Positions 4,706 through 51,589 of a stretch of 51,589 nucleotides of DNA are shown here, piece after piece. A program made the position numbers and the translations under genes. Every line of letters starts with the position of its first letter. Position 1 is the first letter of the stretch. Below the pieces are notes generated by a model. That model searched no databases, was not told the DNA's origin, and saw only the letters and a program-made list of their open reading frames with translations. Source of the stretch: Agrococcus casei LMG 22410 (GTDB lineage: Bacteria > Actinomycetota > Actinomycetes > Actinomycetales > Microbacteriaceae); contig NZ_FUHU01000025.1 in assembly GCF_900163565.1 (NCBI RefSeq), positions 1-51,589 of the forward strand. Reading direction: 5' to 3'.

Positions 4706-4932
4706 GCTGCCTTCCCCAGCTCAGTGATGAGGTCGGGCCGAAACCCTGACCAGTGGCCCACGTCAGACACCACGACCGGCGCCTGCATGTACCCAAGGCT
4801 TCGAACGGTGTCCAACGCAACGCTGTCAGCGGTGACGTCGAGCAGTGTGTACTCAAGACCAGCGTCATCGAGCGCTCTGCAGGTGGCTGTGCACTGCACA
4901 CACGCTGGCTTGGAATAGACGGTGATGCTCAT
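4702..4932 (-). CDS. glutaredoxin-like NrdH-type thiol redoxin
   Basis: The 76-residue product MSITVYSKPACVQCTATCR... has the complete thioredoxin fold layout of NrdH/glutaredoxin: CVQC redox pair (residues 11-14), a TAPVVV-like cis-Pro strand seen here as QAPVVV (50-55), and SGFRPDLI near the end, which is the NrdH signature. It is not next to ribonucleotide reductase genes but is overlapped by 4 nt with the translocase gene upstream and a membrane protein downstream. In this setting it may keep transfer-machinery cysteines reduced or act as a general electron donor; that part is inference. Confidence 0.85.
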   Translation of the reverse strand: MSITVYSKPACVQCTATCRALDDAGLEYTLLDVTADSVALDTVRSLGYMQAPVVVSDVGHWSGFRPDLITELGKAA

Positions 4933-10196: not shown

Positions 10197-10205
10197 TGCT
10201 AGCCC

Positions 10206-12143: not shown

Positions 12144-14662
12144 GCTCGTGTCCGTTCCTGGCTCGGGCGTGTGTCCATCGCCTGCAGGATCTCCGGACTG
12201 GCCGGGGCTGCAACTTTAATCAGTCCAATCCGCGGTGGGTTCATCGCATCGCGGAAGATCGCTTCTCCTTCTCGCCCAGCGATCGGCTTCTTTGTCTTGG
12301 GATCTGTTGGCGAGAGTTGGTATTGGATCATGCTGACCACCTCGGGATCTTCAGCGTCGAGCCCGACCCACTGCGCTGCTGAACGAGCCAACTGCGCTTC
12401 CGGTTGTCTCATCACGTAACGAACTGGGAGGAAGCCTCGAATCGTTTCATTGCCAAGGTGACTGACGTCCTGCCCAGCCATCCCGATGATGGCGTTGTGC
12501 TTTCGCCCATCGAGCACGAACTCCTCAACAACTTGCACCCCCTTCGGGCTGGAAGTGAGTCGCTTCACCTCATCAGTAGCGAACAAGCTCATCCGCGACC
12601 TGTCTTCAAAACACAGCTCGCGCGCGATCTGTGCGATCTGCGCATACAGCGCGTATCCCACGGTCTTCTCGATCGACATCTGTTCGAACATGCGCTCGTT
12701 GGAAAGATCCTGGTCCGAAGGCAGTTCGAGCCCCGATGTGCAGAACACCACTGCCCGGCGCTGCAGATCGACCGCCGGCAAGGAATCATCGAACAGGACC
12801 TTGCCGATGTCCTTGTCTGCGATCATGTCCAGCAGTGCCGCAATCCGCACGGCTGCCTCGTCTCCCTCAGCACTTGCGAGTGCCTGTCGCAGCTGCTCCA
12901 GGCTCGAAATCCCCTCACGCTGCAGAAATGACTGCGACAGGTATCTGGACAATGTTGGAGCGTCCTTATGACGCAAGCCGATGCCAAGCAACGTAGCGAT
13001 GAGAGTCTGAGTCACACGGGATGCCACTTCGGCTGGGAATACCCGCAGCGGGTCCAAGCTCACTTGCGGCTCCAGCACATCAACGACGATGGGATCGTCC
13101 GTCAGAGATCGAATGAACGTCGCGTACTCGCGCTTCACTGTCGGGTCGATGACAACCAAGTTGGCGCCGCGAGCGTACATATAGCCACAGATGCTCATCA
13201 ACGTGAACGTCTTGCCACTGCCGAGCTCACCGATGATGCCAAACGACCCCGAACGGTTGCCTTCGACCGTCCGTGTTGGATCCTGCAACACCGGTGTATT
13301 GCGGCCCGTCGACCGCGCGTGGCCAATGAGGAATCCCGTTGGATCGCCCAGCTTCGAACCAACCAAAGGAAGAGCTGTTGCGAACTGCCGCCCCGTGGAG
13401 AGCTGCTCGTACTCGCGTACGATCCGAGACGCCGGCACACCTGGAATTCCTGCCCACCACAGAGACTCTTGGCCCCCGAGCGGGGTATCCAAATGGAACT
13501 CATATCGCTTCAGTTCACTCGCCAAGGTCTGAGCGCGCTTCTTCGCCATCTCGGCAGTTTGTCCAGATGTATAGAAAACGATCGTTGGCTGTACCGAGAC
13601 CTCTCGTGCTGAAACGTCCAACGCCGCCTGGTAGTCGGCAAGATCTTGGCTGATCATCGTGAGCTCATTCACAGCGCCGGTAATGCCCTGATCGCCGCCA
13701 CTGTACTGAAAGACCTGGTCACGCAACTCGTTCTCCCGCTTCGCGTTTTTTCGCTTCGCAGCAGAGGCAGCTGACACTGTGAGACGAACAACGTAATCGA
13801 CGTCAAACGGCATCGAGTCCACCCACATGAGGTATTCGTTGCCAGGAAAGGTCCACCCAGCCTTGGGCGTGCGCGAAAGCGGCTGCGCCACTTGATAGGA
13901 AGGCACCTCCTGGTCCGGGGTCATGATCTTCACGAACCTTCGGTCCAACAGTGCCGAACGCTCCCGCACAGACTTCAGTTCAGAGACGCCGCCCTCGTCG
14001 ACCACAGGCGCAGTCACGCCAGGGCCCGCAGCGATCTCGGAGGCTTCAAATCCACTGGAGACAACTTCCGGCGCAGCCAAAGTGTCATCAACCACACCTC
14101 GCAGTTGAGCGTGCCGTTGCACCCACAGTTGCTCCGCTACGGACGCTCGACGAGGGCTAAACGCTGCAGGCAGTGCTTCCTCGAGAGCGGCCGCCGCCTC
14201 GAACGCTCCCCGCATGTCCTCCTGCGACGGCCGCCAACGCGGCAGAGCCAGCTCTTCACGGAACTGGATCTGACTTGCGCGCATCGACATCCGCAGCCCC
14301 TGCCCGACGCCACCTGCCCTCAACGGTGCAGCCAACCAGAACGTGCGCTCTCCAAGATGGATACTCTCGAGCGCTCCAAGCGTGAGCTCGGCAGTGTCAA
14401 GCCACATAGGGTTCGCTTGCAGATCCACCCCCTCGATCATCCGCTGCACTACCGCAGCAGGAGACGTCGTAGCGATCGAGGAGATCAGCATGGACTCTCC
14501 CTTCAACGCTTGCAGCAGAGCTTGGTGGTGGGCTCGGCCCAATCTCTTCGTCGACGTCGTCGGGTATCCAAAGTCCAACGGCTCCAGCCGCCAGGTCGCC
14601 CACACGGATCCCGTTCGGGTCCACTGCAAGTGATCGGCATAGAACACTGCGGGAAGTCTCAT
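12140..14662 (-). CDS. VirB4-family T4SS ATPase
   Basis: The 840-residue protein has an N-terminal assembly region and a C-terminal ATPase. Walker A is GELGSGKT (478-485) in SFGIIGELGSGKTFTLM. NLVVIDPTVKREYATF (about 501-516) matches the conserved strand after the P-loop in VirB4/TraC proteins. Walker B is SLFATDEVKRL (about 692-702). GMAGQDVSHLGNETIRGFLPVRYVMR (about 727-752, broken here only by residue numbering) is the typical late motif. It powers assembly of the channel and substrate movement at the inner membrane. Both ends overlap neighbouring genes by 4 nt. Confidence 0.9.
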   Translation of the reverse strand: MRLPAVFYADHLQWTRTGSVWATWRLEPLDFGYPTTSTKRLGRAHHQALLQALKGESMLISSIATTSPAAVVQRMIEGVDLQANPMWLDTAELTLGALESIHLGERTFWLAAPLRAGGVGQGLRMSMRASQIQFREELALPRWRPSQEDMRGAFEAAAALEEALPAAFSPRRASVAEQLWVQRHAQLRGVVDDTLAAPEVVSSGFEASEIAAGPGVTAPVVDEGGVSELKSVRERSALLDRRFVKIMTPDQEVPSYQVAQPLSRTPKAGWTFPGNEYLMWVDSMPFDVDYVVRLTVSAASAAKRKNAKRENELRDQVFQYSGGDQGITGAVNELTMISQDLADYQAALDVSAREVSVQPTIVFYTSGQTAEMAKKRAQTLASELKRYEFHLDTPLGGQESLWWAGIPGVPASRIVREYEQLSTGRQFATALPLVGSKLGDPTGFLIGHARSTGRNTPVLQDPTRTVEGNRSGSFGIIGELGSGKTFTLMSICGYMYARGANLVVIDPTVKREYATFIRSLTDDPIVVDVLEPQVSLDPLRVFPAEVASRVTQTLIATLLGIGLRHKDAPTLSRYLSQSFLQREGISSLEQLRQALASAEGDEAAVRIAALLDMIADKDIGKVLFDDSLPAVDLQRRAVVFCTSGLELPSDQDLSNERMFEQMSIEKTVGYALYAQIAQIARELCFEDRSRMSLFATDEVKRLTSSPKGVQVVEEFVLDGRKHNAIIGMAGQDVSHLGNETIRGFLPVRYVMRQPEAQLARSAAQWVGLDAEDPEVVSMIQYQLSPTDPKTKKPIAGREGEAIFRDAMNPPRIGLIKVAAPASPEILQAMDTRPSQERTRA

Positions 14663-15282
14663 TCGGGTGAGCCTTTCTTCTCGTTGGCGAGCGAGCGTAG
14701 ACGCTCCAGCCCAGTCAGCACAGGAACACCCTGCTCGTCCTCCTGCGCCTGCAGAAGTGGCCGTGGGCGTTCACCTTCTGGAGGAATCACGACCTGCACA
14801 TCGACACCGGTGGCAACAGGCCTTTGAACCTCAACCGGGGGCTGCTCCACCTGCCTGCGCTCGATCACCGAAGCAGCGCTCCCCTGCCATGTTGCAGGCA
14901 CCTGCTGTCGACGCGGAGCCACCCACCGGCGACCCTTATAGCTACCCGCACCGGACTGAGTCACCGCCCGCAACGCGTCGGAGGCAACCATAAGTGGATT
15001 GCGGAACGTCGACGGCAAATACCCCGTGACGTAGGCCGCGCCCCAGCCTCCCAAGATCGTCAACACAAGCTTGAGGACCGCGGGAACATCCCCCAGCGTG
15101 ACCGCAATGAGCACTGGAGTGACGACCAAGGCAATTGCACCTGCCGCAACCTGCATCCCCGAGTACGGCCCCCCAGGGATCTTCATCCCGTCAGAGAGGC
15201 GCCCGAAGGTCAGCGGAATGCGCCGAGCCGCCGTGTAATAGCGAATCAGCTCGACATCGTCGGCGGAGGCACGGTCGGACAT
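14659..15282 (-). CDS. PrgI/VirB3-like membrane protein preceding VirB4
   Basis: This 207-residue protein has two closely spaced membrane helices (about 45-62, VAAGAIALVVTPVLIAVTL; 68-90, LKLVLTILGGWGAAYVTGYL) after a short cytoplasmic start, and a Gln/Pro-rich C-terminal tail. A small two-helix protein directly upstream of the VirB4 ATPase is the usual arrangement of PrgI or VirB3. Its start codon is an ATG and it overlaps the VirB4 start by 4 nt. The ribosome binding site is weak, which suggests coupling to upstream translation. Confidence 0.7.
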   Translation of the reverse strand: MSDRASADDVELIRYYTAARRIPLTFGRLSDGMKIPGGPYSGMQVAAGAIALVVTPVLIAVTLGDVPAVLKLVLTILGGWGAAYVTGYLPSTFRNPLMVASDALRAVTQSGAGSYKGRRWVAPRRQQVPATWQGSAASVIERRQVEQPPVEVQRPVATGVDVQVVIPPEGERPRPLLQAQEDEQGVPVLTGLERLRSLANEKKGSPE

Positions 15283-15300
15283 AGTGAGTTTCGCCGCCGC

Positions 15301-15522
15301 TTACAGCGTGTTGTTCGCAAGGTCGGCGATGAACTGGATGCCTCCGAATGAGACGAGCCAGATCACAACCCCGGCGACGATCGCAGCAATCAGTGTCGCC
15401 GCGATCGCCTTTGACTTCAGCCAAACGAACAGCACCATAATGCACGCAGCGAAAATGACTACTGCATTCAGCGCCGCCTGCGCCTGGTCGGTGAGCTGGA
15501 TGATCCAATCGAAAAATCCCAT
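15301..15522 (-). CDS. small two-helix VirB2/TrbC-like protein
   Basis: The 73-residue product has helices at about residues 19-36 (LNAVVIFAACIMVLFVW) and 41-65 (AATLIAAIVAGVVIWLVSFGGI) joined by a short basic loop KSK. This is the size and hairpin topology of VirB2-type pilins and of the equivalent small proteins in Gram-positive T4SS operons. There is no long cleavable signal peptide. The ATG follows AAAGGAA. It lies between the TcpC-like and PrgI-like genes. A function as a channel subunit is inferred from topology and place. Confidence 0.65.
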   Translation of the reverse strand: MGFFDWIIQLTDQAQAALNAVVIFAACIMVLFVWLKSKAIAATLIAAIVAGVVIWLVSFGGIQFIADLANNTL

Positions 15523-15533
15523 GATGATTCCTT

Positions 15534-16622
15534 TCAGGGACTAGGGGTGGGCGTATCGGAAGGTTCGTCAACAGGTGCTGGCGAACTGGGGGAAGATTGT
15601 GTCGGAAGCTCGTGAGTCTCGCTGCCGTCACTAATCAACGGCGCCGTGTGGATTGCGGAGATCTCCCACCGCTCGGCGCGTGACGACAACGTCAGCAAGT
15701 ACGTGGCAGGGACTGACCGCCCATCCGAGGCCGTGAATACGACGTCGACGAAGACCTCAACGGATTCAGCCTCGCCCGGCGCATCCGCAGCTACCGCAGA
15801 GGCATAGATCAACCGGATGCTGATGCTGTCGTATGGCGAAGGTGAGATCGCAACAATCTGTGTATCTGGTGCGATGAACCGGCTGATGTCACCGGTGCCA
15901 GTGACGTACGCCATCAGAAAGTCGTGTACCGCAACGCCGGCAGTGGAATCCAAGCGCAACTGTTCCGGATAGTCGAGCTCAATGGATACCTGATCAGTCA
16001 CAAGCTCCGCAGGCGCCGGGAACCCCACAGCTGTCAGAACACCGTCGACCTCCTGGATCGCGCTACGGAAGCCCCGCAACACCCAGCCACTCTCGGCCTC
16101 CTCCTCAGAGCCTTCTTCGGCCGGGATTGATTCTTCGACCCACGCCAGAACCTCCGCTGAGTAGAGGCCATCCTCGACGAGCTCAACGTGATCCACCACA
16201 GGATCTCGATACGCCCACGGTTCTGCGCTCAGACCGTTCGTCGACTGCAGCGACACAAAGGAGCTCAGCCTGCCAGCGTCGTCCTTCGACGCCGAAAGCC
16301 AGGCTGTCGTGTACGACAGCGCGTAGGCACTCACGCGCTGCTCCATCGGGTCCACACCCGACGTCGGCGAAGCCGCAACAACAACCTCATCCGAGCCCGT
16401 CGCAAGTTGAGCGATGAAGCCAACACCTCCAAGGGCCGCCAGCCCAACGACGCCCCACAATGCAGCATGCACCGCAACGGAACGCAGAGCCGTGCCCTTG
16501 GGATATGACTCCAGAGAGGTGGTGTGGCCGCCACCTGAGTGAGCACGTTCATCGGCGGCCACACCTGCTTGAGGTTCGGACCCTGAACGGCCCGAACGAG
16601 ATCGGCGAGAAAGGAACCCCAT
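15534..16622 (-). CDS. TcpC/VirB8-like conjugation protein
   Basis: The 362-residue product has a basic cytoplasmic start, one membrane helix (about 50-75, VHAALWGVVGLAALGGVGFIAQ) and a long outside region with two related domains (about 90-205 and 225-325), as in TcpC, whose domains have the NTF2-like fold of VirB8. Examples of family-like spacing are VSAYALSYTTAWL and VHDFLMAYVTGTGDISRFIAP. The tail is Pro/Ser-rich. It bridges membrane and wall in the T4SS. Its ATG overlaps the upstream stop by one base (TGATG). Confidence 0.75.
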   Translation of the reverse strand: MGFLSRRSRSGRSGSEPQAGVAADERAHSGGGHTTSLESYPKGTALRSVAVHAALWGVVGLAALGGVGFIAQLATGSDEVVVAASPTSGVDPMEQRVSAYALSYTTAWLSASKDDAGRLSSFVSLQSTNGLSAEPWAYRDPVVDHVELVEDGLYSAEVLAWVEESIPAEEGSEEEAESGWVLRGFRSAIQEVDGVLTAVGFPAPAELVTDQVSIELDYPEQLRLDSTAGVAVHDFLMAYVTGTGDISRFIAPDTQIVAISPSPYDSISIRLIYASAVAADAPGEAESVEVFVDVVFTASDGRSVPATYLLTLSSRAERWEISAIHTAPLISDGSETHELPTQSSPSSPAPVDEPSDTPTPSP

Positions 16623-20361: not shown

Positions 20362-21137
20362 GTGTCGTCGCCTTCGCATCCGCCACCGGCGCACCTGGCG
20401 TCACCACAACGGCACTCGCCGCAGCGCTGCACTGGCCAGAACCAGCACTGCTGATCGAAGCTGACACCTCGAAAACAACAGACGTCATGGTCGGGTACTT
20501 CCGTGGCCAGCTTCCACATTCCTCAGGCCTCGCCGGCTTGCTCGAACGCCCCGGGGATATCCACGCCTCCACACTCCTGGAGCAGTCCCTGCCACTGACC
20601 GAGGAGTCCTACCCGAAAGTCACCCCAGGATTCACTTCCCTCGCCGCAGGGCAAAGTGCCATCGCACTTTGGAAGAACCTCCCTGGCGCGTTCTACGAGC
20701 TCCAGAGAGCCGGAACCGACATCCTGATGGATCTCGGACGCCTCCGTCACAACGACCCTCGCATGCCGCTACTCGCTGCGGCCGACCAGATCATCGTCCT
20801 AGTACAGCCGCAACTACCAAGCGTGTACTCAGCCTTCATGTACATTCGTGCCCTTCGAACAGAGCTAGAACAGCTCGGGGTCCTAGACACGATCAAGATC
20901 GTGACCGTCGGCGACGGCGACGAAAGCGACCGAGCCATTGCACGCCAAATCGGCTCACCCGTACTAACGCGCCTGCCAGACGACAGATCTGGGGCGGCAA
21001 CCTACTCACTAGGAAAAACAGGCAAAGCACGATCGCTCGGGCGCGCAGCCGAAGCTCTCTCCCGCAGCATCATCGACGCCGCCGCAAACCGCCGCGCTCG
21101 GCTATCAGTGACCTCTGACGAAGGCGGTGCACAGTGA
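20358..21137 (+). CDS. cpaE: CpaE-like ATPase homologue with altered P-loop
   Basis: This 259-residue protein has the ParA/MinD fold order, but its P-loop reads SATGAPGVTTT (about 8-18) where active members have GGVGKTT. The usual catalytic Lys is absent. The second conserved strand ALLIEADTSKTTDV (about 30-43) and a Walker B-like DILMDLGRLR (about 120-129) remain. In Tad systems CpaE localises the pilus. The APGVTT form appears to recur in actinobacterial relatives, so it is probably functional but may not hydrolyse ATP. It overlaps both neighbours by 4 nt. Confidence 0.7.
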   Translation: MSVVAFASATGAPGVTTTALAAALHWPEPALLIEADTSKTTDVMVGYFRGQLPHSSGLAGLLERPGDIHASTLLEQSLPLTEESYPKVTPGFTSLAAGQSAIALWKNLPGAFYELQRAGTDILMDLGRLRHNDPRMPLLAAADQIIVLVQPQLPSVYSAFMYIRALRTELEQLGVLDTIKIVTVGDGDESDRAIARQIGSPVLTRLPDDRSGAATYSLGKTGKARSLGRAAEALSRSIIDAAANRRARLSVTSDEGGAQ

Positions 21138-22723
21138 CCAACCACGAAGACGACCTGCAATCGCTGCCAATTTTTAGCCAGCAGGCACCATCGACAGACG
21201 AGACACAAACAGGACCACGCCCTAGAAACATCGACAAGCTGCTGCGAGATGCAGGCAGCGCTCCCAGCCGGAAAACCGTTCGCGAACAGGAGCGAGAACA
21301 ACCAACATACGAAAGCGTCGCGATGCCTCCGGCCGCGGCGGCAGTGCAACCCGCACCGCTCTCAGCCGACGTGAACTGGGAGCTGGTCAAGGATCACACG
21401 AGCATCGTTTCCACTGCGATTACCGAGGAGCAGACTGCCCGGTACGACCGAGGCGAGAGCTTCGCGGACACCACCCGCCACAGCATCGCCCGTCGAGCCG
21501 CGATCGACGCGCTAGATCAACACGTCTCCCGAGAAACGCGCGTCTCCGGCGAACGCGCGTTGCTGAGTCCTGCCGAGCACGCCGCGCACGTCGAGGCCGT
21601 GCTCAGCACAATGTTTGGCCTAGGACGCCTTCAACCTCTCGTCGACAATCTCCTCATTGAGAACATCCACATCAACGGGTTCGATAACGTCCGCGTGCAG
21701 TACACCGACGGCAGCTGGGAGCAGATATCTCCTATCGCTAACAGCGATGACGAGGTGGCTGACATGGTCCGCATGTTGGCAACGAACAGAGGGGATGAGG
21801 CTAGGCCCTTTGACAAAATCAACTCCCGCATCAACCTCGATATAACCCCGCGGGATTCCTTGGCTGGCGCCGCCAGAATCATCGGCTTGCTGCCCCCTGT
21901 GGTACCTCGCATTAGCGTGGTGATTCGCCTGCACCGCGTTATCGAAACGAGCCTCAACGACATGGTCGCCAGGCAATCAATCAACCACCCAGCTGCTGCC
22001 CTTCTAACAGCCGCTGTCGCAGGAAAATGCTCGATCATGGCCGCTGGAGAGCCTGGCGCAGGAAAGACCACGATGCTTCGCGCACTCGCCTCTGCCATCG
22101 ATCCCACAGAACCTATCGCCACCATCGAGAACGAACGCGAGCTCTACCTCGACCGCATGCCCGAGCGACACCACATGGTTGTCGCCATGCAAGGCGTGCC
22201 CGGATACAAGGATCCCGATTCCATCACCGGAACACGGGGCGAAGTCACTCTTCTCGAACTCCTCGCTGACAGTCTTCGACTCAACACCCAACGGATAATC
22301 GTCGGCGAGCTGCGCGGTGGCGAAGTCCGGGCCATGTTCCAAGCAATGCAGGCTGGAGCGGGGTCATTCTCCACTGTGCACGCGAATAGTGCAGCAGACA
22401 CCATTGAGCGTCTCGTCACGCTGTTTCTCGACAACGCTGACGTGAACGAGGCCTATGCAAAGCGGCGCATCATGCAGGACGTGGACCTCATCCTGCACCT
22501 CGGGCGCATCCGCGCAGCTGACGGTAGCCAGCGCCGAGTGGTCACTGAGATCGCCCAAGTGCAGTCCGCTGAGAATCGACCCACAGTTGCCCCGATATTC
22601 CGCTACGACCCTGCCCAAGAGCAACTCGTCCCCGTGACGCTGCCAAGTGATGAGCTGCTTAGGAAACTCGAGGAGCACGGTTTCGACAGGCAGCTTCTCC
22701 ACCCCGGTGGTGAAGTCGCATGA
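21134..22723 (+). CDS. cpaF: CpaF/TadA secretion ATPase of the Tad pilus
   Basis: The 529-residue product is a complete type II/IV secretion ATPase. Walker A is GEPGAGKT (305-312), the Asp box is TIENERELYLD (about 330-340), Walker B is RIIVGELRGGE (387-397) and the His box is STVHANSA (413-420). It is the hexameric motor for Flp pilus extension and probably retraction. A stretch around residues 356-398 reappears, diverged, in the small gene at 25863. It is flanked by 4-nt overlaps. Confidence 0.9.
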   Translation: MTNHEDDLQSLPIFSQQAPSTDETQTGPRPRNIDKLLRDAGSAPSRKTVREQEREQPTYESVAMPPAAAAVQPAPLSADVNWELVKDHTSIVSTAITEEQTARYDRGESFADTTRHSIARRAAIDALDQHVSRETRVSGERALLSPAEHAAHVEAVLSTMFGLGRLQPLVDNLLIENIHINGFDNVRVQYTDGSWEQISPIANSDDEVADMVRMLATNRGDEARPFDKINSRINLDITPRDSLAGAARIIGLLPPVVPRISVVIRLHRVIETSLNDMVARQSINHPAAALLTAAVAGKCSIMAAGEPGAGKTTMLRALASAIDPTEPIATIENERELYLDRMPERHHMVVAMQGVPGYKDPDSITGTRGEVTLLELLADSLRLNTQRIIVGELRGGEVRAMFQAMQAGAGSFSTVHANSAADTIERLVTLFLDNADVNEAYAKRRIMQDVDLILHLGRIRAADGSQRRVVTEIAQVQSAENRPTVAPIFRYDPAQEQLVPVTLPSDELLRKLEEHGFDRQLLHPGGEVA

Positions 22724-35797: not shown

Positions 35798-36589
35798 TTA
35801 AGATTTCCTGACCGGCACTCCGCCTACTTCCTCGATTGAGTTCAGCCCTCGAGGTGCCGGGAGGTTTTCATACAAGCTCTTCGACTTGACGCTACTGGCC
35901 TGTCGTTCCATCAGTGAACGATTGACATCACGCGCGAGCTCGTAGTGCATGTGGCTCTCTTCCTTGATCAACAAGCCCGCGGACGAATGCAACTGCACCT
36001 CGGCCAAAACACCCTCGTTCGTGCGAACGCTCAGGTGCACAGCTTTATACGAATTTCCTGACGCGTACTTGTTGTCAATCTCGGTCACCTTCAGGCCCGC
36101 GGCATGCAACCGCTCCACCGTGGAACGCAGCGCGCCGGTGATCGAGTCCTGGTCCGGGGTCTCCACAGTGAAACGCAAGACATCCGAAAGGCGACCAGCC
36201 TCTGCCTCCGCGGACGGCTCCACCTGTGTGCGGTCGGCCTCGGTCAGTCGTGCCGAGATCTTCCGCACCAGCGAAGCTGGCGACTTCAAGCGAAACTCCA
36301 GTCCAGCAAGCTTGTTCCCAGTGCCTTCCACCGCCTGCTGCATGGCAGTCGTGACCTCAGGCTCGACATCGGCATGCGCCTGCAACACAGCCAGGCCAGC
36401 GGCGACGATCTCCTTCCGATCGGCATACTCGCGCCACAGCGCATCAAGATCCATATCCTGCTCAGACCACGCCACATCCGGCACGTTCGGGCACGCCTCA
36501 GGCTTCAGCGCCTCAATTGGCAGCGCTTTGAGGTGAGCGGCGTTATTGCACCGCTTTGGCCCTCGCGGATCAGTGCTCGCTCTGCACAT
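35798..36589 (-). CDS. RelA/SpoT-type (p)ppGpp synthetase-domain protein, candidate toxSAS toxin
   Basis: With the ATG at 36589 the product has 263 residues; later starts at 36484 (GTG) and 36454 (ATG) are possible. The synthetase signature is clear: RLKSPASLVRK (100-110), LSDVLRFTV (134-142), GNSYKAVHL (178-186), EVQLHSS (197-203) and EESHMHYELARD (210-221). It is stand-alone and small, without TGS or ACT domains. The ribosome binding site is weak and the start overlaps the HD gene upstream, so expression is coupled. Toxic small alarmone synthetases make (pp)pApp or pyrophosphorylate tRNA; which reaction applies here cannot be told. Confidence 0.75.
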   Translation of the reverse strand: MCRASTDPRGPKRCNNAAHLKALPIEALKPEACPNVPDVAWSEQDMDLDALWREYADRKEIVAAGLAVLQAHADVEPEVTTAMQQAVEGTGNKLAGLEFRLKSPASLVRKISARLTEADRTQVEPSAEAEAGRLSDVLRFTVETPDQDSITGALRSTVERLHAAGLKVTEIDNKYASGNSYKAVHLSVRTNEGVLAEVQLHSSAGLLIKEESHMHYELARDVNRSLMERQASSVKSKSLYENLPAPRGLNSIEEVGGVPVRKS

Positions 36590-37025
36590 CGAGCTGCGCC
36601 CGCGCATACGCGTACTTGCCCCGCAACCGCGTGGCTTCATCGACAGACAGCTGCGCCAAACGCAGCGGGTCGGTGTTATCGGCGATGTCGGCCAGCTTCA
36701 CGACGCGGGCCACTTCGTTGCTCGCCACCCGGTGGTAGTACTCCTCCGGCAGCTCACCGGCACGACGCGTCACCGCACCGACCGCTGCAGCAACACCAGC
36801 GCCGAACTGCTGCTCAATCTCCTCGAGCGTGCAACCAGTGTCCTCAACGACATCGTGCAGCCAGGCCACGGCAACCGCTGGGTCCCTCTCGCCCCGCTGC
36901 GCAGCCACAGCTGCGGCGACCCTGGCCGGATGAGCAATATACGGGCGGCCGGCCTTGTCGACCTGACCAGCATGGGCTCGTTCACTGAGCGCGCGTGCCC
37001 TCGCCACCATCGAACCTGCAACCAT
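36570..37025 (-). CDS. HD-domain (p)ppGpp hydrolase-like protein, candidate antitoxin
   Basis: The 151-residue product is a small alarmone hydrolase (MESH/SAH type): PYIAHPARVA (H32), AWLHDVVEDTG (H57, D58, E61, D62) and VKLADIADN (D113) give the full metal and catalytic set of Rel HD domains. AGGAGG lies upstream of the ATG. It is directly followed, with overlap, by a RelA/SpoT synthetase-domain gene. In known FaRel-type pairs the hydrolase neutralises the synthetase by destroying its product. Confidence 0.8.
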   Translation of the reverse strand: MVAGSMVARARALSERAHAGQVDKAGRPYIAHPARVAAAVAAQRGERDPAVAVAWLHDVVEDTGCTLEEIEQQFGAGVAAAVGAVTRRAGELPEEYYHRVASNEVARVVKLADIADNTDPLRLAQLSVDEATRLRGKYAYARAQLDVQSEH

Positions 37026-40145: not shown

Positions 40146-40226
40146 ATGCTAGCGCATAGCCTGACTCAGGCTCTCGCATTCATGCGAGTGTCGCCGTGGC
40201 GTTCGCGAAAGGCCTCGGAGAAATGA
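40146..40226 (+). CDS. leader peptide coupled to rep
   Basis: AAAGGA precedes an ATG that opens 26 codons (MLAHSLTQALAFMRVSPWRSRKASEK). The TGA overlaps the ATG at 40223 of the Rep gene as ATGA. Two adjacent inverted repeats lie inside: AGCCTGA/TCAGGCT (40158-40172) and CTCGCAT/ATGCGAG (40173-40188). Translating the leader would melt these structures and let ribosomes reach the rep start, as with tap-repA of IncFII plasmids. Confidence 0.6.
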   Translation: MLAHSLTQALAFMRVSPWRSRKASEK

Positions 40227-43200
40227 CCCTCGCCAGTTCGCTCTCTGCGCGTCCTCGATCCTTTGATGTGATCGTGGATGCGCTTGCTGCGCGCGGTCCG
40301 GTGAAGAAGCTGCGTGAGCACGATGTGATGGCGCTGTGCCCGGTCCATGACGACCGCACGCCCTCTCTGCACGTCACGTACAAGCCGCACGAAGAGAAGA
40401 CGCTCGTACACTGCCAGGCCTGCAAGAACACCATCAGCGCAGCGGATGTGATGGACGCGCTCGGTCTGACCGTGGACACCATGTTCGACAAGCCGCTGGA
40501 GCGCACCGACCGTACCGACTGGAAGACGCAACGGCCCGCAAAGACGCGGACCAAGAAGACTCCTCGAGCGAAGCTGCCCGAGCGGTTGGTATCCAAGGTC
40601 GAAGCCGAGCCCGAGATCCCTAAGAACGCTTGGCAGGAAGTCACCCGGTACGAGTACACCGACGACTCCGGCACTGTGGTGCAGCAGGTGATCCGCCTCG
40701 AGGCTGTAATCGATGGGGAGCGGCGCAAGCGGTTCGTGCAGTCGTTCGTATCCCCGGCGACAGGACGGCCCGTGCGCACCAAGCCCAAGGGATTCACGCC
40801 TGTGCTGTACAACCAGCCGGCAGTGAAGAGCGCGATCGCGGCAGGGCAGCCGGTTTGGATCGTCGAGGGCGAGAAGGACGCCGATTCGGCAGAGGCCGCC
40901 GGCCTGGTTGCGACGACGAACGCGCAGGGTGCCGGCTCCTGGCCGGAGCACCTGACCGAGGTCTTCGCCGGCGCCGACGTCCGCGTCGTCGTCGACCGCG
41001 ACGCTTCAGGCGCGAAGTGGGCACTGTCGATCCACGACCAGCTCCAGGCACTCGAGCCTGCCGCGCAGGTGGCGCTGCTGTTGCCGGCAGTCGAGGATGC
41101 CAAGGCTGACCTGACCGATCACCTCGATGCCGGCATGGGCGCCGACGACCTGGTGCCCGTGACTGCCGAGGATCTCCGAGCCGCGATCGCGGTGGGAGCG
41201 GCAGAGGTAGCGGGTGCGCAGCTTGCCGATGCTGCAGCTGAGGCGGAGGCGCAGCTCGAGCAGCAGCACGTCGAGCAGGCGAACTTGTGGGCAGGGGAGA
41301 CGCAGCGGCTGTGGGAGAAGGTGCAGGCCGCGCAGCAGGAGATCTTGCAGCTGCAACTCTCTTCGGCCGGCCAGCAGACGGCTGCTGCAGCCGTGGCGCT
41401 GGCAACGACAGCCCTGAAGGCCAGAAATGCTGCCCATGTCGCCGTGGGGCTGCCCGCGATCGAGGAGCACCTCGAGGAACCAGCCGCTGTGCCGGCAAAG
41501 GAGCTCATCGGCAGCGACGGCGGCTTCGATGGCTCCGGAGGCGATGACTTCGACGGCAGCTGGGGCGACGACGACGACGTCGAGAACACCGCCCCGGTCT
41601 ACCGAGTGCGGAAGGGCGAAACCGTCCGCGTGACGCGATCCAACGACAAGACCGTCTACCAAACCGTGATCCGCGGCTGGGCCCACGTGATCGAGGAGCG
41701 CACGATCGACGACGGCCAGGACAGCGAACTGGCGCGCCCCCGCGACTCCTACGTGATCCGCTGGTTCCGGTGGAAGCGCGACGACCGCGGCCGTCCCATC
41801 GTCAACAGCCACGGCAACCACGAGCTCGAGCAGTCGACGATGACGATCGATGCGGAAATGGTGCAGAAGAAGACCTGGACCCAGTCGCTGCCATGGTCGG
41901 GCATGCTCGTCAGCTCCAAGCCCTCCGCGATTGCCCAGGCATGGGATGCGATCTTCAACGCCAGGCCCGTCTCCTCGGACACCGCTAAGACGGTCTACGT
42001 CGCCCCAGGGTGGCGCGAGCACGATCTCGGACGATTCTTCGTGCACCGCTCCGGCGCGATCGGTCCCAACGGCCGCCTAGACGTGCCTGTGCGCTTCACA
42101 CCCTCTGGCCCGTTCTCCGTCTACGACCTGCCCGACCCCGTCGATGACGCGAAGGTGCTGCGCCAGGCGTGGCTCGCGGGGACCGTGCCGCTGCAGCAGC
42201 ACCTGCCCGCGAAGGTGCTCGCGCCGCTGCTGGGCACGGTGTGGCACTCGCCGTTCGGCAAGAGCGCCCTCGCCACGCACCTCATGGGTGCGCGAGCTGC
42301 TGCGAAGACTGGAACCGCCGGCCTCGTCTGCCAGTACTTCGCACCCCTGGCGCACTTCCACGGACGCCGCAAAGCCATGCTCTCCGGCTCCGACTCAGGA
42401 TCCACCTTCCACGGCCTCATGCAGGTCAGCAGCATGTTCGGCAACGTGCCCGCAATCATCGACGACTTCGCCCCCGACGGCGTCCCCGAGAAGATCCGCA
42501 AGAAGCTCGGCGACTTCGCCCGCGCCTTCGAAGCCGGCGAGGCCGGCGGCCGCCTGCGCATGAAGCGCGAAGGCGGATTCTCACAGAACGAGAACGGCAG
42601 CATCGAGTTCTCACCCATCACCACCGGCGAGCTCTCCGCAGACGGATCGAACCTCTCACGCCTGCTGGTCATCCCACTCAACCCCGGAGACATCGACAAC
42701 ATCGGAGATCTCTACCCGAAGCTGGAAACCAAGCAGGCACGTGACGCACGAGCCCAGCTCGGCGCCAACCTGATCATGTACCTCGCCCGCCACTGGGACG
42801 CGCTGCAGGAAGAAGCAGACCCCGAGAACCCAGCACAGCAGGCCATGCGCACCGAGTGGCTGCAGCGCCTCGAGCTGCTGAACACCGACAGCGGCGCCAT
42901 CGGCCGCTATATGAACGACGCAGTGAAGCGGCACTTCGGCATCCGACTCATGCTGCGCATGCTCGTCGGTGCCGGCGCCATCAGCCGTGACGAAGCAACC
43001 AAGTTCGAGGCCTGGTTTATCGAGGGCCTCACCGAGGCATACGGGCAGCAGGAATCCACCGGCGGCGACCCGGCCGCGAACTTCCTGCAGTACCTGCGTG
43101 AAGCGCTCCTCAATGGCCGCGCCTACATCTCCGACCGTGACGGCCAAGCACCAGAGTTCGCACAAGGAGCCCTCGGCTGGCGACTGCGCGGCACGTTCGA

Positions 43201-45190
43201 AGGGCACGACAACTGGGAGCAGCAGGCCCGCACCCGTATCGGTGTCATCGAGGGAGAGCGCCTGTATCTGTTCCCGACCACAGCGTTCGACGTTGCCAGC
43301 GAAGCCGCCAACCGTGCCGGCGAGACGCTGTCGGAGACGACGACCAGCGTCGGGTCCAGCCTGGTCGCCCACGGCTGGACCGAGCGCGATGGCGGCAAGT
43401 CCACCAGCCGTCGCCGCATCGGCGGCGTCCAGCAGCGCGTGTGGGACCTCCACATCGACGTGCTCATCGGCGACGAGCCCGGCCAGCCCAAGGACACAGG
43501 CACCATCGAACCGACACCCACACCTCCCACACCGCCGGCAGCCCCGGTCGACGAGGATCCATTCACCACACCCGACAGCCCCGACACAGACACCCCGGCG
43601 CAGCTCGAGTTCGAAGAGCGCATCCAGCGCGCCCCCGACGTCGACGAGCAGCCAGCCGCCCGAACCAACACAGCTGCGGCTCCGGCGCCCGCTGCCACGG
43701 TCGCTGGTGCCAGCCAAGCGCCTGCCGAGCCGCCGGCCAGGCCGCGACGCGACCACGAATACCGGGCAGCAGTCGCCGTCCTCGATACTCGCGGTCTGTG
43801 GCTGCCCAACGGCACCTGCGTCGACGTTCCCGCCATGGAACACTTCGGCACCATCGCCAAGCTCGCCCAGGATCTCAACCTCGGCGCCCGCAGCGGCTCC
43901 TGGAAGTCGGAAACCCCGACGATCTTCATCACCGACGACGCAGCCCTACGCCTCAACATTCCTGTCGACCAGCTCCCCAAGCTCGCCCGGAAGCAAGACG
44001 AGTTCCTGAAGGCCGAAACCGAGAACCACTGGACGCTGAAGAATGCACTGCGCGACGGATGGGAGTTCCGCACCGACGAGCCATGGATCCACGCCACGAC
44101 CCGCATCTGGGCCAAGGGAGCCAAGCACTACGGCGTGAAACTCGCCCTCATCGCGCTGCGCCGCGACGACACCGACGGAATCTTCGCTGACAACCCTTCC
44201 CCGGCGACCGTCGCAGCCAGGTTCCAAAAGCTCGCCGACCGAAACGTGCCCTTCGCGGTCTCCGCGAAAACGACCGGCTTCCAGCTGATGGAAGCGACCG
44301 TGCACGTCAAGGACCGAGATCTGCGCGAATCGTTCATGACCGCCACGACCGATCCCGTGCTGCCCGCCACCGTGCCGGCCCTCGAGGACGACTTCAACTG
44401 GACCCGCAAGCCCACCGACGATGAAACCCGCCACGAGCTCGTCCACGCCTACGATCGCAACGGCTCCTACCTTGCCGGCGTCTCCGGCACATACTTCGGA
44501 CTGGGGGAGCCGACCCACTTCGCGAGTGGCCACGAGTTCGTCAAGAACAAGCAGGGCTACTACCGCGTGCAGCTGCCCCAGCGCGAGGACCTCGACCCAC
44601 GCATGCCCAGTCCATTCGGACACCACAACGACGAACGCCTCGGCCGCGACGCCTGGGTCAGCGCACCCACACTCGAGATCGCCAACGAGATCGGCCTCGA
44701 CCTCATCGTCCACGAGGCCTACATCTGGGAAACCTCACACCGCAGCCTCGACTCCTGGGCCAAGTACATCGATACCGCCCGCACCGAGCTCGACACCCCC
44801 GACGTCGACGACCAGGCCGCGCGCAGCATCATCAAGTCCATCTACGTTCGCGCCATCGGGTCGATCGGCTCCGTCGACTACCACTCCGGTCGACGAGGAT
44901 TCGCCCCCGAGAGACGCCACGCCATCCAGGCCAGAGCACGAGCAAACATGATCCGCCGCATCGTCAAGATCGGCAACGCCACCAACACCTGGCCCATCGC
45001 CGTGCACAAAGACACGCTGCTGTACACCAGCAACAACAGCGATGCCCTGGCCGCATGGCCCGGCACCATCGACGACCTCGGCAAAGGACTCGGCAAGTAC
45101 AAGCACGAAGGCGTCGCCCCGATGGCAGAGCAGCTGCCCTACTTCCACGGCGGCACCTACGACGGCAAGTTCGGAATCGAGAAGGACTAA
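40223..45190 (+). CDS. giant replication protein: primase, SF3-like helicase and polymerase-like C-terminus
   Basis: The ATG at 40223 overlaps the leader peptide stop (ATGA) and gives 1655 residues; a GTG at 40196 is possible. In order: a CHC2-type zinc finger (ALCPVHDD, C39, H42; VHCQACK, C64, C67); TOPRIM (WIVEGEKDAD, E215; VVVDRDASG, D258, D260); a coiled and acidic linker; a DUF927/D5-like helicase with GARAAAKT (689-696, the usual Gly before Lys is Ala), SDSGST (723-728), AIIDDF and a late Arg region SNLSRLLVIPL; a Pro/Ala linker (about 1090-1175); and a C-terminal region with polymerase-like motifs: YDRNGSYL (D1411), KSIYVRAIG (K1538) and HKDTLLY (D1597), then LGKGLGKYKHEG. It would start and perhaps complete replication. 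Confidence 0.75.
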   Translation: MTLASSLSARPRSFDVIVDALAARGPVKKLREHDVMALCPVHDDRTPSLHVTYKPHEEKTLVHCQACKNTISAADVMDALGLTVDTMFDKPLERTDRTDWKTQRPAKTRTKKTPRAKLPERLVSKVEAEPEIPKNAWQEVTRYEYTDDSGTVVQQVIRLEAVIDGERRKRFVQSFVSPATGRPVRTKPKGFTPVLYNQPAVKSAIAAGQPVWIVEGEKDADSAEAAGLVATTNAQGAGSWPEHLTEVFAGADVRVVVDRDASGAKWALSIHDQLQALEPAAQVALLLPAVEDAKADLTDHLDAGMGADDLVPVTAEDLRAAIAVGAAEVAGAQLADAAAEAEAQLEQQHVEQANLWAGETQRLWEKVQAAQQEILQLQLSSAGQQTAAAAVALATTALKARNAAHVAVGLPAIEEHLEEPAAVPAKELIGSDGGFDGSGGDDFDGSWGDDDDVENTAPVYRVRKGETVRVTRSNDKTVYQTVIRGWAHVIEERTIDDGQDSELARPRDSYVIRWFRWKRDDRGRPIVNSHGNHELEQSTMTIDAEMVQKKTWTQSLPWSGMLVSSKPSAIAQAWDAIFNARPVSSDTAKTVYVAPGWREHDLGRFFVHRSGAIGPNGRLDVPVRFTPSGPFSVYDLPDPVDDAKVLRQAWLAGTVPLQQHLPAKVLAPLLGTVWHSPFGKSALATHLMGARAAAKTGTAGLVCQYFAPLAHFHGRRKAMLSGSDSGSTFHGLMQVSSMFGNVPAIIDDFAPDGVPEKIRKKLGDFARAFEAGEAGGRLRMKREGGFSQNENGSIEFSPITTGELSADGSNLSRLLVIPLNPGDIDNIGDLYPKLETKQARDARAQLGANLIMYLARHWDALQEEADPENPAQQAMRTEWLQRLELLNTDSGAIGRYMNDAVKRHFGIRLMLRMLVGAGAISRDEATKFEAWFIEGLTEAYGQQESTGGDPAANFLQYLREALLNGRAYISDRDGQAPEFAQGALGWRLRGTFEGHDNWEQQARTRIGVIEGERLYLFPTTAFDVASEAANRAGETLSETTTSVGSSLVAHGWTERDGGKSTSRRRIGGVQQRVWDLHIDVLIGDEPGQPKDTGTIEPTPTPPTPPAAPVDEDPFTTPDSPDTDTPAQLEFEERIQRAPDVDEQPAARTNTAAAPAPAATVAGASQAPAEPPARPRRDHEYRAAVAVLDTRGLWLPNGTCVDVPAMEHFGTIAKLAQDLNLGARSGSWKSETPTIFITDDAALRLNIPVDQLPKLARKQDEFLKAETENHWTLKNALRDGWEFRTDEPWIHATTRIWAKGAKHYGVKLALIALRRDDTDGIFADNPSPATVAARFQKLADRNVPFAVSAKTTGFQLMEATVHVKDRDLRESFMTATTDPVLPATVPALEDDFNWTRKPTDDETRHELVHAYDRNGSYLAGVSGTYFGLGEPTHFASGHEFVKNKQGYYRVQLPQREDLDPRMPSPFGHHNDERLGRDAWVSAPTLEIANEIGLDLIVHEAYIWETSHRSLDSWAKYIDTARTELDTPDVDDQAARSIIKSIYVRAIGSIGSVDYHSGRRGFAPERRHAIQARARANMIRRIVKIGNATNTWPIAVHKDTLLYTSNNSDALAAWPGTIDDLGKGLGKYKHEGVAPMAEQLPYFHGGTYDGKFGIEKD

Positions 45191-45193
45191 CCC

Positions 45194-45811
45194 GTGAGCA
45201 TCTACGACGATGACGACGACATCCAACAGGAGTCGAGCGAACGCAACAGGATACTGTTCGAACAATTCACCGATCGAGCAGCCCCACATCCCGACCGAAC
45301 TGGCACAGACAACGTGCGCGACATGCTCTCCTACAAGTTCAGCCACACCTACCGAGGCAAAGAAGCCGTCGATACCCGAAAGGCCGCGCAATGGTTCGGA
45401 GTGTCGCAGCGAACCGTACAGCGATGGGTCAAGAACGGTCGCATGCCCGAAGGCACGAACCACAAACGCCTTCGCCGATCTGTAAAACGCACCCTCACCA
45501 AAGAGGGCCGCAAAGCCGCTGTGAAGCGCTCTCCCAAGCGCAACGCCCCCTACGCGAACACCGGCGCAACAATCAAGGTGCACGGCTACCAAGGACCCCC
45601 TGAGGGCCCTGGCGGCAGCTACAAGCGCTCACGCACCACATCGGTGCCGCTCAGCGGCGAGGAATACCAGCAGCTCTTCGACGCCTTCGCAGAAAATGGC
45701 GAATCGGGTGTCCAAGCGTTCCTCCGACCGCACTTCGCCCGCCGCTACACCAACGGCTGGAACTTCGACACGATCGACGATCTCTCCTTCGGGGATCCGT
45801 CACCGTACTAA
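45194..45811 (+). CDS. Tpg-like (telomere terminal protein-like) HTH protein
   Basis: The GTG follows AAGGA and lies 3 bp after the Rep stop. The 205-residue product has an HTH at about residues 61-81 (TRKAAQWFGVSQRTVQRWVKNG), a basic region RRSVKRTLTKEGRKAAVKRSPKR, TGATIKVHGYQGP, then TTSVPLSGEEYQQLFDAF and a final part with WNFDTIDDLSFGD. This order (GVSQRTVERY-type HTH, basic region, Thr-Gly strand, LPPEYAARLFDA-like helix, late FTDID-like end) is what I recall of Streptomyces Tpg proteins, which cap chromosome ends. The match is from memory. A plain DNA-binding regulator is the alternative. Confidence 0.55.
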   Translation: MSIYDDDDDIQQESSERNRILFEQFTDRAAPHPDRTGTDNVRDMLSYKFSHTYRGKEAVDTRKAAQWFGVSQRTVQRWVKNGRMPEGTNHKRLRRSVKRTLTKEGRKAAVKRSPKRNAPYANTGATIKVHGYQGPPEGPGGSYKRSRTTSVPLSGEEYQQLFDAFAENGESGVQAFLRPHFARRYTNGWNFDTIDDLSFGDPSPY

Positions 45812-49810: not shown

Positions 49811-51457
49811 TCAGAATAGGGCCGCTCCAGGCTCGCCCAGTTCCTCTTCTCCAACAAGCTCCCGAACCCGTGCAAGCACCGCAGACCCGTGCATTGCTCC
49901 CACATCACCCAGCACGAGCGCGTGCATAACTGCGATGGCACGCGATTGATCATCCAGTCCAGCCATACTGAGGCGTCGATCCAAACTTGCCGCAATCGAC
50001 GCAGTCCTCGCCACCTCTGCAGTGTCTGCGGACTCAGCGACCGTGTAAAGCGCGGACAGCACTTCTAAGGGCTGCCACAGCTCGCGATTCTCATCAAACC
50101 AAGCAAAGTCACGACCCCAAGTCGGTGTCGGCACCTGCTCGAGCTGGATGTTTAGGAGCTCAAGCATCTCGTCAATCGACGTCGACGCAGGGTCGACTCC
50201 GAGAACCTTGCGTAGCAACAGGCTCGACACCTGCCCCAACGGCACACGGAGATCCAGCTGGAACGGTTCGAGGTAGCGATCGTGCTCTAAAGCCGCATCG
50301 ATACCTCGAGTAATCGCATTGATCACTGTCTGTGTGCTTGTCGCAGGTCGCTGCCGATACTGCTGCTTGGCATGCGTGCCAGCGCGAACTGACGACCACA
50401 CCACCGAATACAACCTCCCCAGGCTGAGCGGCCCGATCCTCGAGGAAACCGACGTCGAGAAGTACGACCACTGCTCCTGCGTCGGCGAAGGCAGGGACAC
50501 TTCACTCAGTTTGAACTCCAAGTACCGATGCACCTCACCCAAGATCACTCGCACAATCAGCTCAGGCAGCTGCTCGATGTATCGCCGAGGCAAGCTCTGC
50601 AGCTCCACAGACGGCAACTCATCGAGCCACACGTCGACCCGCTCGTGAATTTGCCCGCGCCCGGGGACCTGAAACGCCGCCCGAAGCGGACTGAACGTTG
50701 CAGGGAAGTCACTGCTCCCATCAGCCCAATCCAGCGATTCAAGAGGAGTGTCGGGGGAGATCCTCAACAGGTCCGCTGCAAGAAGAGCCTGCAATACCCC
50801 GAGTGAACCTTCAACGCCCGCAGCTAACGGCGTACTCACCGCATCGAACGGACCTACACCAAGCTCTGATCTCTGCCGGAGCACCACACTTAACTGCAAC
50901 AGCTCCTCAGCGGAAGAGGGGTACTTCGTCCATTCGTCCAACCCACAGCGTTCCCGAACTACCGCACGTCGCCGCAGTTCCAGCTCTGCTCGAGCAGATT
51001 CCTCCTCCTGGTGCCGGCTGAGCGCTTGGGCCTTTGCTCGCGCCCTCCACGAATGCGGATACCGTGCCCGCTCAAGCTGACCAGCTAGCAAGTCAGAGCA
51101 GCGCAAGCACTTATCAAACCGGAACGAGTGCGCCGGGGGATTCTCGAGATACGAAGGGGCTGTCCGGAGAAAACTATCAAGCCCTGATCTGCTCACTGGC
51201 CTGTATGGAACAGCCCCGCAGGCAAAGCACGCAAAGCCATGCACCTCGAGGGATCCTCCCGCAGCAGCCACTACTGATGCGTGAGCTCCCCCGAACTCAG
51301 GCACGAGAAGCTCCGAAACCTTCCATCTCCACTCGGGAAGCTCAGAAGCATTGACAGAATCGAATGCCCAATACAAAGCCGCAAACGCCGCAAATTCAGC
51401 CGGCGCAGCATCATCCTTCTCAAAACGAAATTCAACCTGTCGATCGCGCTGCCTCAT
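49811..51457 (-). CDS. large protein of unknown function with a four-Cys motif
   Basis: The 548-residue product starts at 51457 and reads leftward from the palindromic edge of the window. Near the N-terminus it has CFACG (about 76-80) and CLRCSD (about 116-121), likely one zinc site, followed by a charged helical region (RARAKAQALSRHQEEESARAELELRRR). The rest is helical and leucine-rich, with no enzyme motif that I can see. There is no ribosome binding site at the ATG. Its coding segment 50974-51014 is repeated in inverted form at the window end. The family is not recognised. Confidence 0.6.
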   Translation of the reverse strand: MRQRDRQVEFRFEKDDAAPAEFAAFAALYWAFDSVNASELPEWRWKVSELLVPEFGGAHASVVAAAGGSLEVHGFACFACGAVPYRPVSRSGLDSFLRTAPSYLENPPAHSFRFDKCLRCSDLLAGQLERARYPHSWRARAKAQALSRHQEEESARAELELRRRAVVRERCGLDEWTKYPSSAEELLQLSVVLRQRSELGVGPFDAVSTPLAAGVEGSLGVLQALLAADLLRISPDTPLESLDWADGSSDFPATFSPLRAAFQVPGRGQIHERVDVWLDELPSVELQSLPRRYIEQLPELIVRVILGEVHRYLEFKLSEVSLPSPTQEQWSYFSTSVSSRIGPLSLGRLYSVVWSSVRAGTHAKQQYRQRPATSTQTVINAITRGIDAALEHDRYLEPFQLDLRVPLGQVSSLLLRKVLGVDPASTSIDEMLELLNIQLEQVPTPTWGRDFAWFDENRELWQPLEVLSALYTVAESADTAEVARTASIAASLDRRLSMAGLDDQSRAIAVMHALVLGDVGAMHGSAVLARVRELVGEEELGEPGAALF

Positions 51458-51477
51458 AGATTCAACGTATCCCTACA

Positions 51478-51545
51478 GCGGCCGCGCAGCGGTCCGCCGA
51501 GGCAGCGGCTTGCCGCTGCGCGACGCTAGGCGCAGCGCGCCTAGC
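51478..51545. repeat. cluster of GC-rich palindromes, telomere-like
   Basis: Within 68 bp there are GCGGCCGC (51478-51485); GCAGCGGC and GCCGCTGC (51502-51509, 51512-51519); an alternative pairing CGCGCAGCGG with CCGCTGCGCG (51483-51492, 51513-51522); and GCTAGGCGC with GCGCCTAGC around the loop AGC (51525-51533, 51537-51545). Adjacent palindromes closed by GCA-type loops resemble actinomycete telomeres. Transcription hairpins are the simpler alternative. Confidence 0.55.
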
Positions 51546-51548
51546 CCT

Positions 51549-51589
51549 GCACCAGGAGGAGGAATCTGCTCGAGCAGAGCTGGAACTGC
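51549..51589 (-). repeat. 41-bp inverted copy of 50974-51014 at the window end
   Basis: The last 41 bases are the exact reverse complement of 50974-51014, which lies within the unknown gene. The match runs to the end of the window and may continue beyond it. It may be a real inverted duplication, a fold-back at a linear end, or an assembly or amplification artefact. Confidence 0.9.

Follow-up and report, generated by a model that had tools for sequence, protein, structure and literature searches.

Here we describe a replication locus on contig NZ_FUHU01000025.1 of Agrococcus casei LMG 22410, centred on the gene for a very large putative plasmid replicase with a polymerase-like C-terminal domain. 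The window, that is, the whole stretch of DNA analysed, is the entire contig of 51,589 nucleotides (nt), from a genome of 2.79 Mb in 48 contigs. The replicase gene is followed immediately by a gene for a small helix-turn-helix (HTH) protein, and telomere-like hairpins lie close to the right end (Table 1). Counted from a GTG, the open frame at 40196-45190 (+) encodes 1664 amino acids (aa); the ATG at 40223 is in frame at residue 10 and agrees with the start sites in relatives. A first-pass annotation made from the letters alone had described a fused Rep of 1655 residues from this ATG; the frame is real and the motifs quoted there are present in its translation. Residue numbers below count from the GTG at 40196 (1664 aa), and those of the first-pass annotation equal ours minus 9. 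The protein consists, in order, of a CHC2 zinc finger, a TOPRIM domain, an AAA+ helicase, a linker and a 480-residue C-terminal domain.

Table 1. Positions of the replicase, its parts and the associated features in the 51,589-nt window.
Feature	Positions	Strand	Details
pAL1.101-type replicase	40223..45190	+	1655 aa from ATG 40223; 42.2% identity over 85% to pAL1 protein; same domain order
CHC2-type zinc finger	40313..40438	+	residues 40-81; C48, H51, C73, C76; Pfam, PHROGs, conservation
TOPRIM domain	40856..41134	+	EGEKD 224-228, DRD 267-269, DLTDH 305-309; PHROGs, alignment
Central AAA+ helicase region, Cch/SaPI-Rep-like	41588..43585	+	residues 465-1130; predicted model and Foldseek
Walker A variant GARAAAKT	42287..42310	+	residues 698-705; G698 and K704 invariant in 10/10
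Walker B Asp pair D756-D757	42461..42466	+	invariant in 10/10
Pro/Ala-rich linker	43544..43747	+	sequence, alignment; pLDDT ~30 in the stretch covered by the helicase model
Protein-primed family B polymerase-like domain	43748..45187	+	residues 1185-1664; AlphaFold2, Foldseek against PDB and BFVD, hhalign
Motif A YDRNGSYL	44450..44473	+	D1420 on phi29 D249 by alignment
Motif B KSIYVRAIG	44834..44860	+	K1547 on phi29 K383 by alignment
Motif C AVHKDTLLY	44999..45025	+	D1606 on phi29 D458 (catalytic); H1604 on D456
LExE-type motif LGKYKHEG	45089..45112	+	G1633, Y1635, E1638 on phi29 G481, W483, E486
Terminal protein gene	45194..45811	+	205 aa with an HTH; homologous to the terminal protein of pAL1, distantly related to Tpg
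Telomere-like hairpins	51483..51549	-	9-bp stem (loop GCT), 7-bp stem (loop CAAG), larger nested repeat
Inverted 44-nt copy of 50974-51017 (98%)	51546..51589	.	just past the telomere palindrome, at the contig end

A tblastn comparison of the whole protein with 72,556 plasmid records gave a match in 496 of them, and in 11 a single place covered at least 80% of the query. Best among the matches listed were pC1c of Curtobacterium sp. C1 (42.4% identity) and pAL1 of Arthrobacter sp. Rue61a (42.2% over 85%), where the match is annotated as a telomere-associated protein (WP_011928078.1), which we take to be pAL1.101. Work from 2010 is said to have found that pAL1.101 nucleotidylates its terminal protein by adding deoxycytidine monophosphate (dCMP) and shows partial family B motifs, and a DNA-primed polymerase activity has reportedly been described as well. 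The pAL1 protein (1707 aa) shares an identical domain order, the adjacent terminal-protein gene, the proximity to a telomere and a similar telomere; it differs in belonging to a separate plasmid and in its Walker A sequence, which is GGRASAKT as opposed to GARAAAKT in the window. Having both the full-length homology and the domain order of a pAL1.101-type replicase, the window protein is, to judge from its sequence, a further member of these already known replicases. Both Tap and a terminal protein have been characterised on pAL1, according to the available part of the source (PMC7276702).

The first-pass annotation had suspected a polymerase palm in the C-terminal domain, and structural as well as profile comparisons support this. 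An AlphaFold2 model of residues 1185-1664 reached a predicted local distance difference test (pLDDT) score of 90.9 and a predicted template modelling (pTM) score of 0.89. Searched with Foldseek against PDB, it gave 24 matches at E<=0.001, of which the best nine were all phi29 DNA polymerase (E 2.4e-11 to 2.4e-9) and the remaining 15 were KOD/Tgo-type and engineered family B enzymes; against BFVD there were 48 matches at E<=0.001, headed by DNA polymerases and including some otherwise named or unnamed proteins. For profile comparison, a scan of a genome collection yielded 46 loci, 44 of which were checked and stripped of 7 duplicates; the resulting 37 plus the window form the 38-row alignment A4, which leaves out the partial loci L049 and L056. 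In hhalign A4 matched a profile of nine phage protein-primed polymerases with P 1.3e-6 (probability 90.6, 389 columns), compared with P 0.21 to 0.74 for ten column shuffles. A set of 73 relatives, taken from 90 open frames with E<1e-60 minus duplicates and short matches, and without a short, diverged class or those first halves of tandem proteins that have diverged (see below), gave P 2.2e-8 (probability 95.3), compared with 0.29 to 0.93 in twenty shuffles. Control profiles of the helicase and the terminal protein gave P 0.77 and 0.37 against the same polymerase profile. The Pfam family DNA_pol_B_2 matched in 3 of the 38 A4 members (best E 2.7e-5) and, when 20 members were scanned singly, in one, L025, with 23.7 bits (cut-off 25.8). 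A PHROGs search with the C-terminal domain returned nothing usable, and in a scan of viral contigs 0 of 58 candidate stretches were confirmed as relatives.

Besides the predicted fold, the window protein shares with phi29 DNA polymerase a motif A, the motif B Lys, the second Asp of motif C and an LExE-type motif, all in phi29 order, whereas it lacks the first motif C Asp and the NSxY of motif B and is fused to primase and helicase parts. Motif spacing is 127 residues from A to B and 59 from B to C, versus 134 and 75 in phi29. The available part of one source (PMC4974454) names Asp249 and Asp458 as the catalytic carboxylates of phi29 DNA polymerase and records an LExE motif in the enzyme; phi29 residues are given here in the usual numbering, the deposited record counting 3 lower. 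The residues D1411, K1538 and D1597 singled out in the first-pass annotation are present, as D1420, K1547 and D1606 in our numbering, and fall on phi29 D249, K383 and D458. Among the 73 relatives D1420, D1606, W1402, R1404, G1555 and P1600 never vary, while K1547 is retained in 71, Y1610 in 70 and E1638 in 65, and position 1605, which falls on phi29 T457, carries T or S in 43.

A second Asp in motif C had seemed "not obvious" in the earlier description. One Asp is indeed missing, but the lost one would be the first and the retained D1606 the catalytic second: because D1606 aligns with D458, and position 1604 is acidic in 4/73 relatives (position 1608 in 0/73), motif C appears to retain the catalytic Asp, the other being gone. 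The register is the same in the six rows of the diverged short class, where the D of GTDEL falls on phi29 D458. The ExoI and ExoII residues of phi29 fall outside the aligned part of the C-terminal domain, and no acidic column in the first 215 columns of the domain is kept in all 73 relatives. Conservation by itself gives no sign that an exonuclease site is retained. R1199 and Q1363 of the window occupy columns with an acidic residue in 65 and 67, respectively, of these relatives, a possible vestige of an exonuclease site.

The same C-terminal domain ties the replicase to Tap, the telomere protein of Streptomyces. Used alone as query it matched 465 plasmid records, 343 of them from Streptomyces. 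Four Streptomyces loci in which an HTH protein of 705-780 aa is followed by a 185-residue protein (with a small frame between them in one) look like tap-tpg. The NCBIfam model telomere_Tap (NF047542, cut-off 600) scored 1092.6 bits on the one Streptomyces protein tested and 103.3 bits (E 1.5e-29), below its cut-off, on the window protein, in which neither Pfam (E<=1) nor NCBIfam (E<=0.1) recognised an HTH. A profile of 18 Tap-like C-termini matched A4 with P 3.3e-51, and the equivalents of D1420 and D1606 are both kept in an alignment of 14 proteins and in 19/19 Tap-like members of the 73-relative set (4 from Streptomyces plasmids, 15 from one genus). Tap and the window protein thus have in common a homologous polymerase-like C-terminal domain, the same conserved residues and a terminal-protein gene next door; they differ at the N-terminus, where the four Streptomyces proteins have an HTH and the window protein a zinc finger, TOPRIM and helicase. 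The alternatives offered in the first-pass annotation, polymerase or Tap-like telomere protein, seem from these alignments to be one and the same.

As far as its available text goes, Yang et al. 2015 (PMC4513846) describes protein-primed synthesis of up to 13 nt in vitro by Tap and Tpg alone, reports no polymerase motif in Streptomyces Tap and proposes a new class of DNA polymerases. A literature search that took in few subscription papers and lacked the text of Yang 2017 found no description of Tap as family B, and the words Streptomyces, pAL1 and linear plasmid are all absent from the main text of a PolB survey (PMC7544198).

The remaining parts of the protein largely follow the initial description. 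The CHC2-type zinc finger and TOPRIM assigned to the N-terminus were borne out: PF01807 matched residues 40-81 slightly below its cut-off (E 2.7e-5, 24.3 bits, cut-off 24.9), PHROGs primase families matched residues 37-366 (best E 5.7e-21), NCBIfam also backs both parts, and C73, C76, E224-K227, D267 and D269 are unchanged in all 10 aligned proteins. Both DnaG-type primase features are therefore present. The centre had been called a DUF927/D5-like helicase, and the fold search upheld the helicase but placed Cch and SaPI Rep closest, with D5 weaker. With an AlphaFold2 model built from 21 sequences (pLDDT 80.2, pTM 0.65), the top Foldseek matches were SCCmec Cch (5dgk, E 1.3e-12) and SaPIBov1 Rep (8tch, E 3.8e-11), followed by an MCM (3.3e-4) and poxvirus E5/D5 (5.6e-3 and weaker). 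Pfam names no helicase in the centre of the window protein; in relatives the centre gave weak AAA-type matches in 7 of 21 (best E 0.0026). The likeness to Cch and SaPIBov1 Rep lies in the fold, whereas identity is 11-13% and the window helicase is joined to TOPRIM and polymerase-like parts. The Pro/Ala linker described between helicase and C-terminal domain is also seen.

The product of the gene directly downstream is 36% identical to the pAL1 terminal protein. On pAL1 the gene of a 210-residue HTH protein begins 3 bases past that of the 1707-residue protein, the same pair as in the window, and a terminal-protein gene directly follows the replicase in 9 chosen plasmids as well. Compared with five Tpg-like proteins, the terminal-protein family gave P 2.1e-11; NCBIfam telomere_Tpg matched the 205-aa protein with E 1.2e-7 and 31.9 bits (cut-off 90). 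The ends of pAL1, pC1c and pGnB68 start with CCTGC-NNN-GCAGG and have a CAAG-loop hairpin with stems of 4, 6 and 8, and the right end of the window shares the CAAG hairpin and the GCAGG arm with them. Folded as single-stranded DNA, 51440-51549 gave a z of -2.39, with 5 of 200 shuffles equally good; when the mononucleotides of the final 120 nt were shuffled, a stem of at least 8 arose in 12 of 500 cases. No telomere was seen in the first 600 bases of the contig, which stops there. The 44-nt repeat that ends the contig probably arose by fold-back beyond the telomere during assembly; alternatively, it could be a trace of a real fold-back at the terminus.

Elsewhere the polymerase-like domain is found with other partners. 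It is fused to a DnaB-type helicase in L064 (DnaB_C 7e-18) and to a DUF927-like part in L063 (3e-4, below cut-off), has no other recognised part in L061, and stands in tandem with a diverged copy of itself in 17 of the 108 open frames with a match, which are mycobacterial, from Nocardia or, in a few cases, unassigned. The first half of the tandem protein L062 is 38% identical to the stand-alone L061 protein (E 2e-93). Tandem proteins, with the first copy diverged, occur in L062 (3276-6542) and also in L032-L041, L044, L046-L048, L051 and L052. A diverged class of about 550 aa (L109-L113 and L115) combines an HTH with a palm-like domain containing ALDINGAYL, YVKAMYSKF and GTDELHV; its six rows matched A4 with P 2.8e-16 and the phage polymerases with P 5.5e-4 (shuffles 0.11-0.55). 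At L110 (764-2985), the locus examined, the gene adjoins that of an HTH protein of 190 residues similar to a terminal protein, and the class is a possible partner for unusual telomeres. Searches with A4 matched 11 of 297 genomes of the order of the window at E<=1e-5, four of them weakly and partially, while 31 of 296 genomes of its class matched A5, a profile that additionally contains HTH and other N-terminal columns.

Taken together, these observations make it very probable, in our judgement, that the protein acts as replicase of a linear plasmid capped by terminal protein, unwinding DNA with its AAA+ part and carrying at its C-terminus a diverged phi29-like protein-primed family B polymerase, the same domain as in Tap. 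From the domains and from published work on relatives, unwinding, priming and synthesis might proceed as follows. An AAA+ ring of the Cch/SaPI-Rep type would unwind the plasmid, and the zinc finger and TOPRIM part may prime or nick. The C-terminal domain would bind the small terminal protein of the neighbouring gene (45194-45811) and attach the first nucleotide to this protein at the telomere, on the palindromic 3' overhang, a reaction served by two metal ions presumably held by D1420 and D1606, after which the polymerase would extend. With other N-terminal parts, the same polymerase domain would constitute the end-patching enzyme Tap of Streptomyces. To go by its domains, the window protein may even unite all replisome activities, as the first-pass annotation had supposed.

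Several results weigh against this reading. Across the whole domain, superposition on phi29 DNA polymerase gave a template modelling (TM) score of 0.48 and a root-mean-square deviation of 8.3, with 12% identity, and the domains are therefore placed differently. DNA_pol_B_2 was found in only 3 of 38 members, the one located being below the Pfam cut-off; a search of PDB sequences with the A4 profile returned no polymerase (best E 0.11), and the C-terminal domain of the window itself has no Pfam match. The last two results would suit an unrelated fold with look-alike motifs, an explanation we consider very improbable given a Foldseek E of 2.4e-11 with one enzyme providing the nine best matches, the profile P values of 1.3e-6 and 2.2e-8 with their controls, and the correct order of the motifs. 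In the first half of L062, which lies outside the 73-relative set, T replaces the motif A Asp of L061. Outside the polymerase-like domain, the Walker A of the window, GARAAAKT, is unusual, the sequence elsewhere being mostly GxxxSxKT/S. Motif B retains its Lys and Gly with NSxY gone, and the first Asp of motif C is replaced by His in the window. These losses would fit a domain that has kept the polymerase fold but is catalytically dead, holding the terminal protein and the folded 3' overhang as a scaffold and leaving synthesis to a host polymerase; in the available parts of the sources, Tap binds the telomere structure and presumably recruits Tpg (PMC3572947), and DinB1 or DinB2 is mentioned as earlier put forward as the enzyme (PMC4513846). 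However, both Asp are present in 73/73 relatives and the motif B Lys in 71/73, and nucleotidylation in vitro by Tap and Tpg alone is described (PMC4513846, available text), so we regard a dead domain as unlikely.

We give equally little credence to a polymerase site that exists solely in terminal protein and Tap together, with a reverse-transcriptase thumb-like part in the terminal protein. In the text available, Yang et al. 2015 (PMC4513846) report a thumb-like motif in Tpg and none in Tap and favour a polymerase built from the two jointly, but the alignment places the Lys and the two catalytic Asp within the Tap/replicase domain, and the terminal-protein profile misses the polymerase profile (P 0.37). 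A further limit of the main reading is that a profile of Tap-like sequences only gave no match to the phage polymerases (P 0.33, shuffles 0.17-0.89), the link from Tap to polymerases running through the pAL1-type relatives; the reported lack of a polymerase motif (PMC4513846, in part) may arise because Tap-like sequences alone do not match a polymerase profile. A narrower version of the replicase reading, in which the first half of the protein serves internal initiation, the C-terminal domain serves telomeres only and host Pol III performs bulk synthesis, with no whole replisome, has in our view about even chances, as the domain occurs with an HTH, a DnaB-type helicase (L064), a DUF927-like part (L063), alone (L061) or in tandem (L062), and Tap made just 13 nt in vitro (PMC4513846, available part). 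Against this version stands the DNA-primed polymerase activity reportedly described for pAL1.101.

Other genes of the window include conjugation-type genes for an M23 peptidase, an AAA_10 ATPase and TcpC at 9096-16622 (-), a conjugation-type T2SSE ATPase at 21134-22723 (+), and an FtsK/SpoIIIE-type protein at 4929-8405 (-), whose residues 634-717 match LAGLIDADG and may represent an intein within a transfer ATPase. The plasmid may, by these predictions, be self-transmissible. An AbiEii-type nucleotidyl transferase is encoded at 1187-2203 (-), and a weak RelA/SpoT match, below cut-off, lies at 35798-36640 (-).

What makes the locus valuable is that it allows a polymerase to be assigned and connected with Tap, down to named residues. 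Streptomyces Tap makes protein-primed DNA without a recognised motif, as the available part of PMC4513846 has it, and the window protein and its relatives bridge that gap; the comparison suggests where the chromosome-end polymerase of Streptomyces is located. We think it likely that the pAL1.101-type replicases, Streptomyces Tap and the diverged 550-residue class beside a Tpg-like gene form one phi29-like protein-primed family B family that keeps both metal-binding Asp. The "new class" would then be an old one in hiding, the ends of linear chromosomes would stem from a captured phage-type protein-primed replicon, and the fusion in the window may represent a complete one-polypeptide replisome. 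The relatives also suggest that, in linear plasmids, a single polymerase domain has been combined again and again with different partners of helicase, primase or DNA-binding type. With two named Asp and one Lys proposed as the active site, the question of how linear chromosomes are finished would be reducible to an experiment with three mutants.

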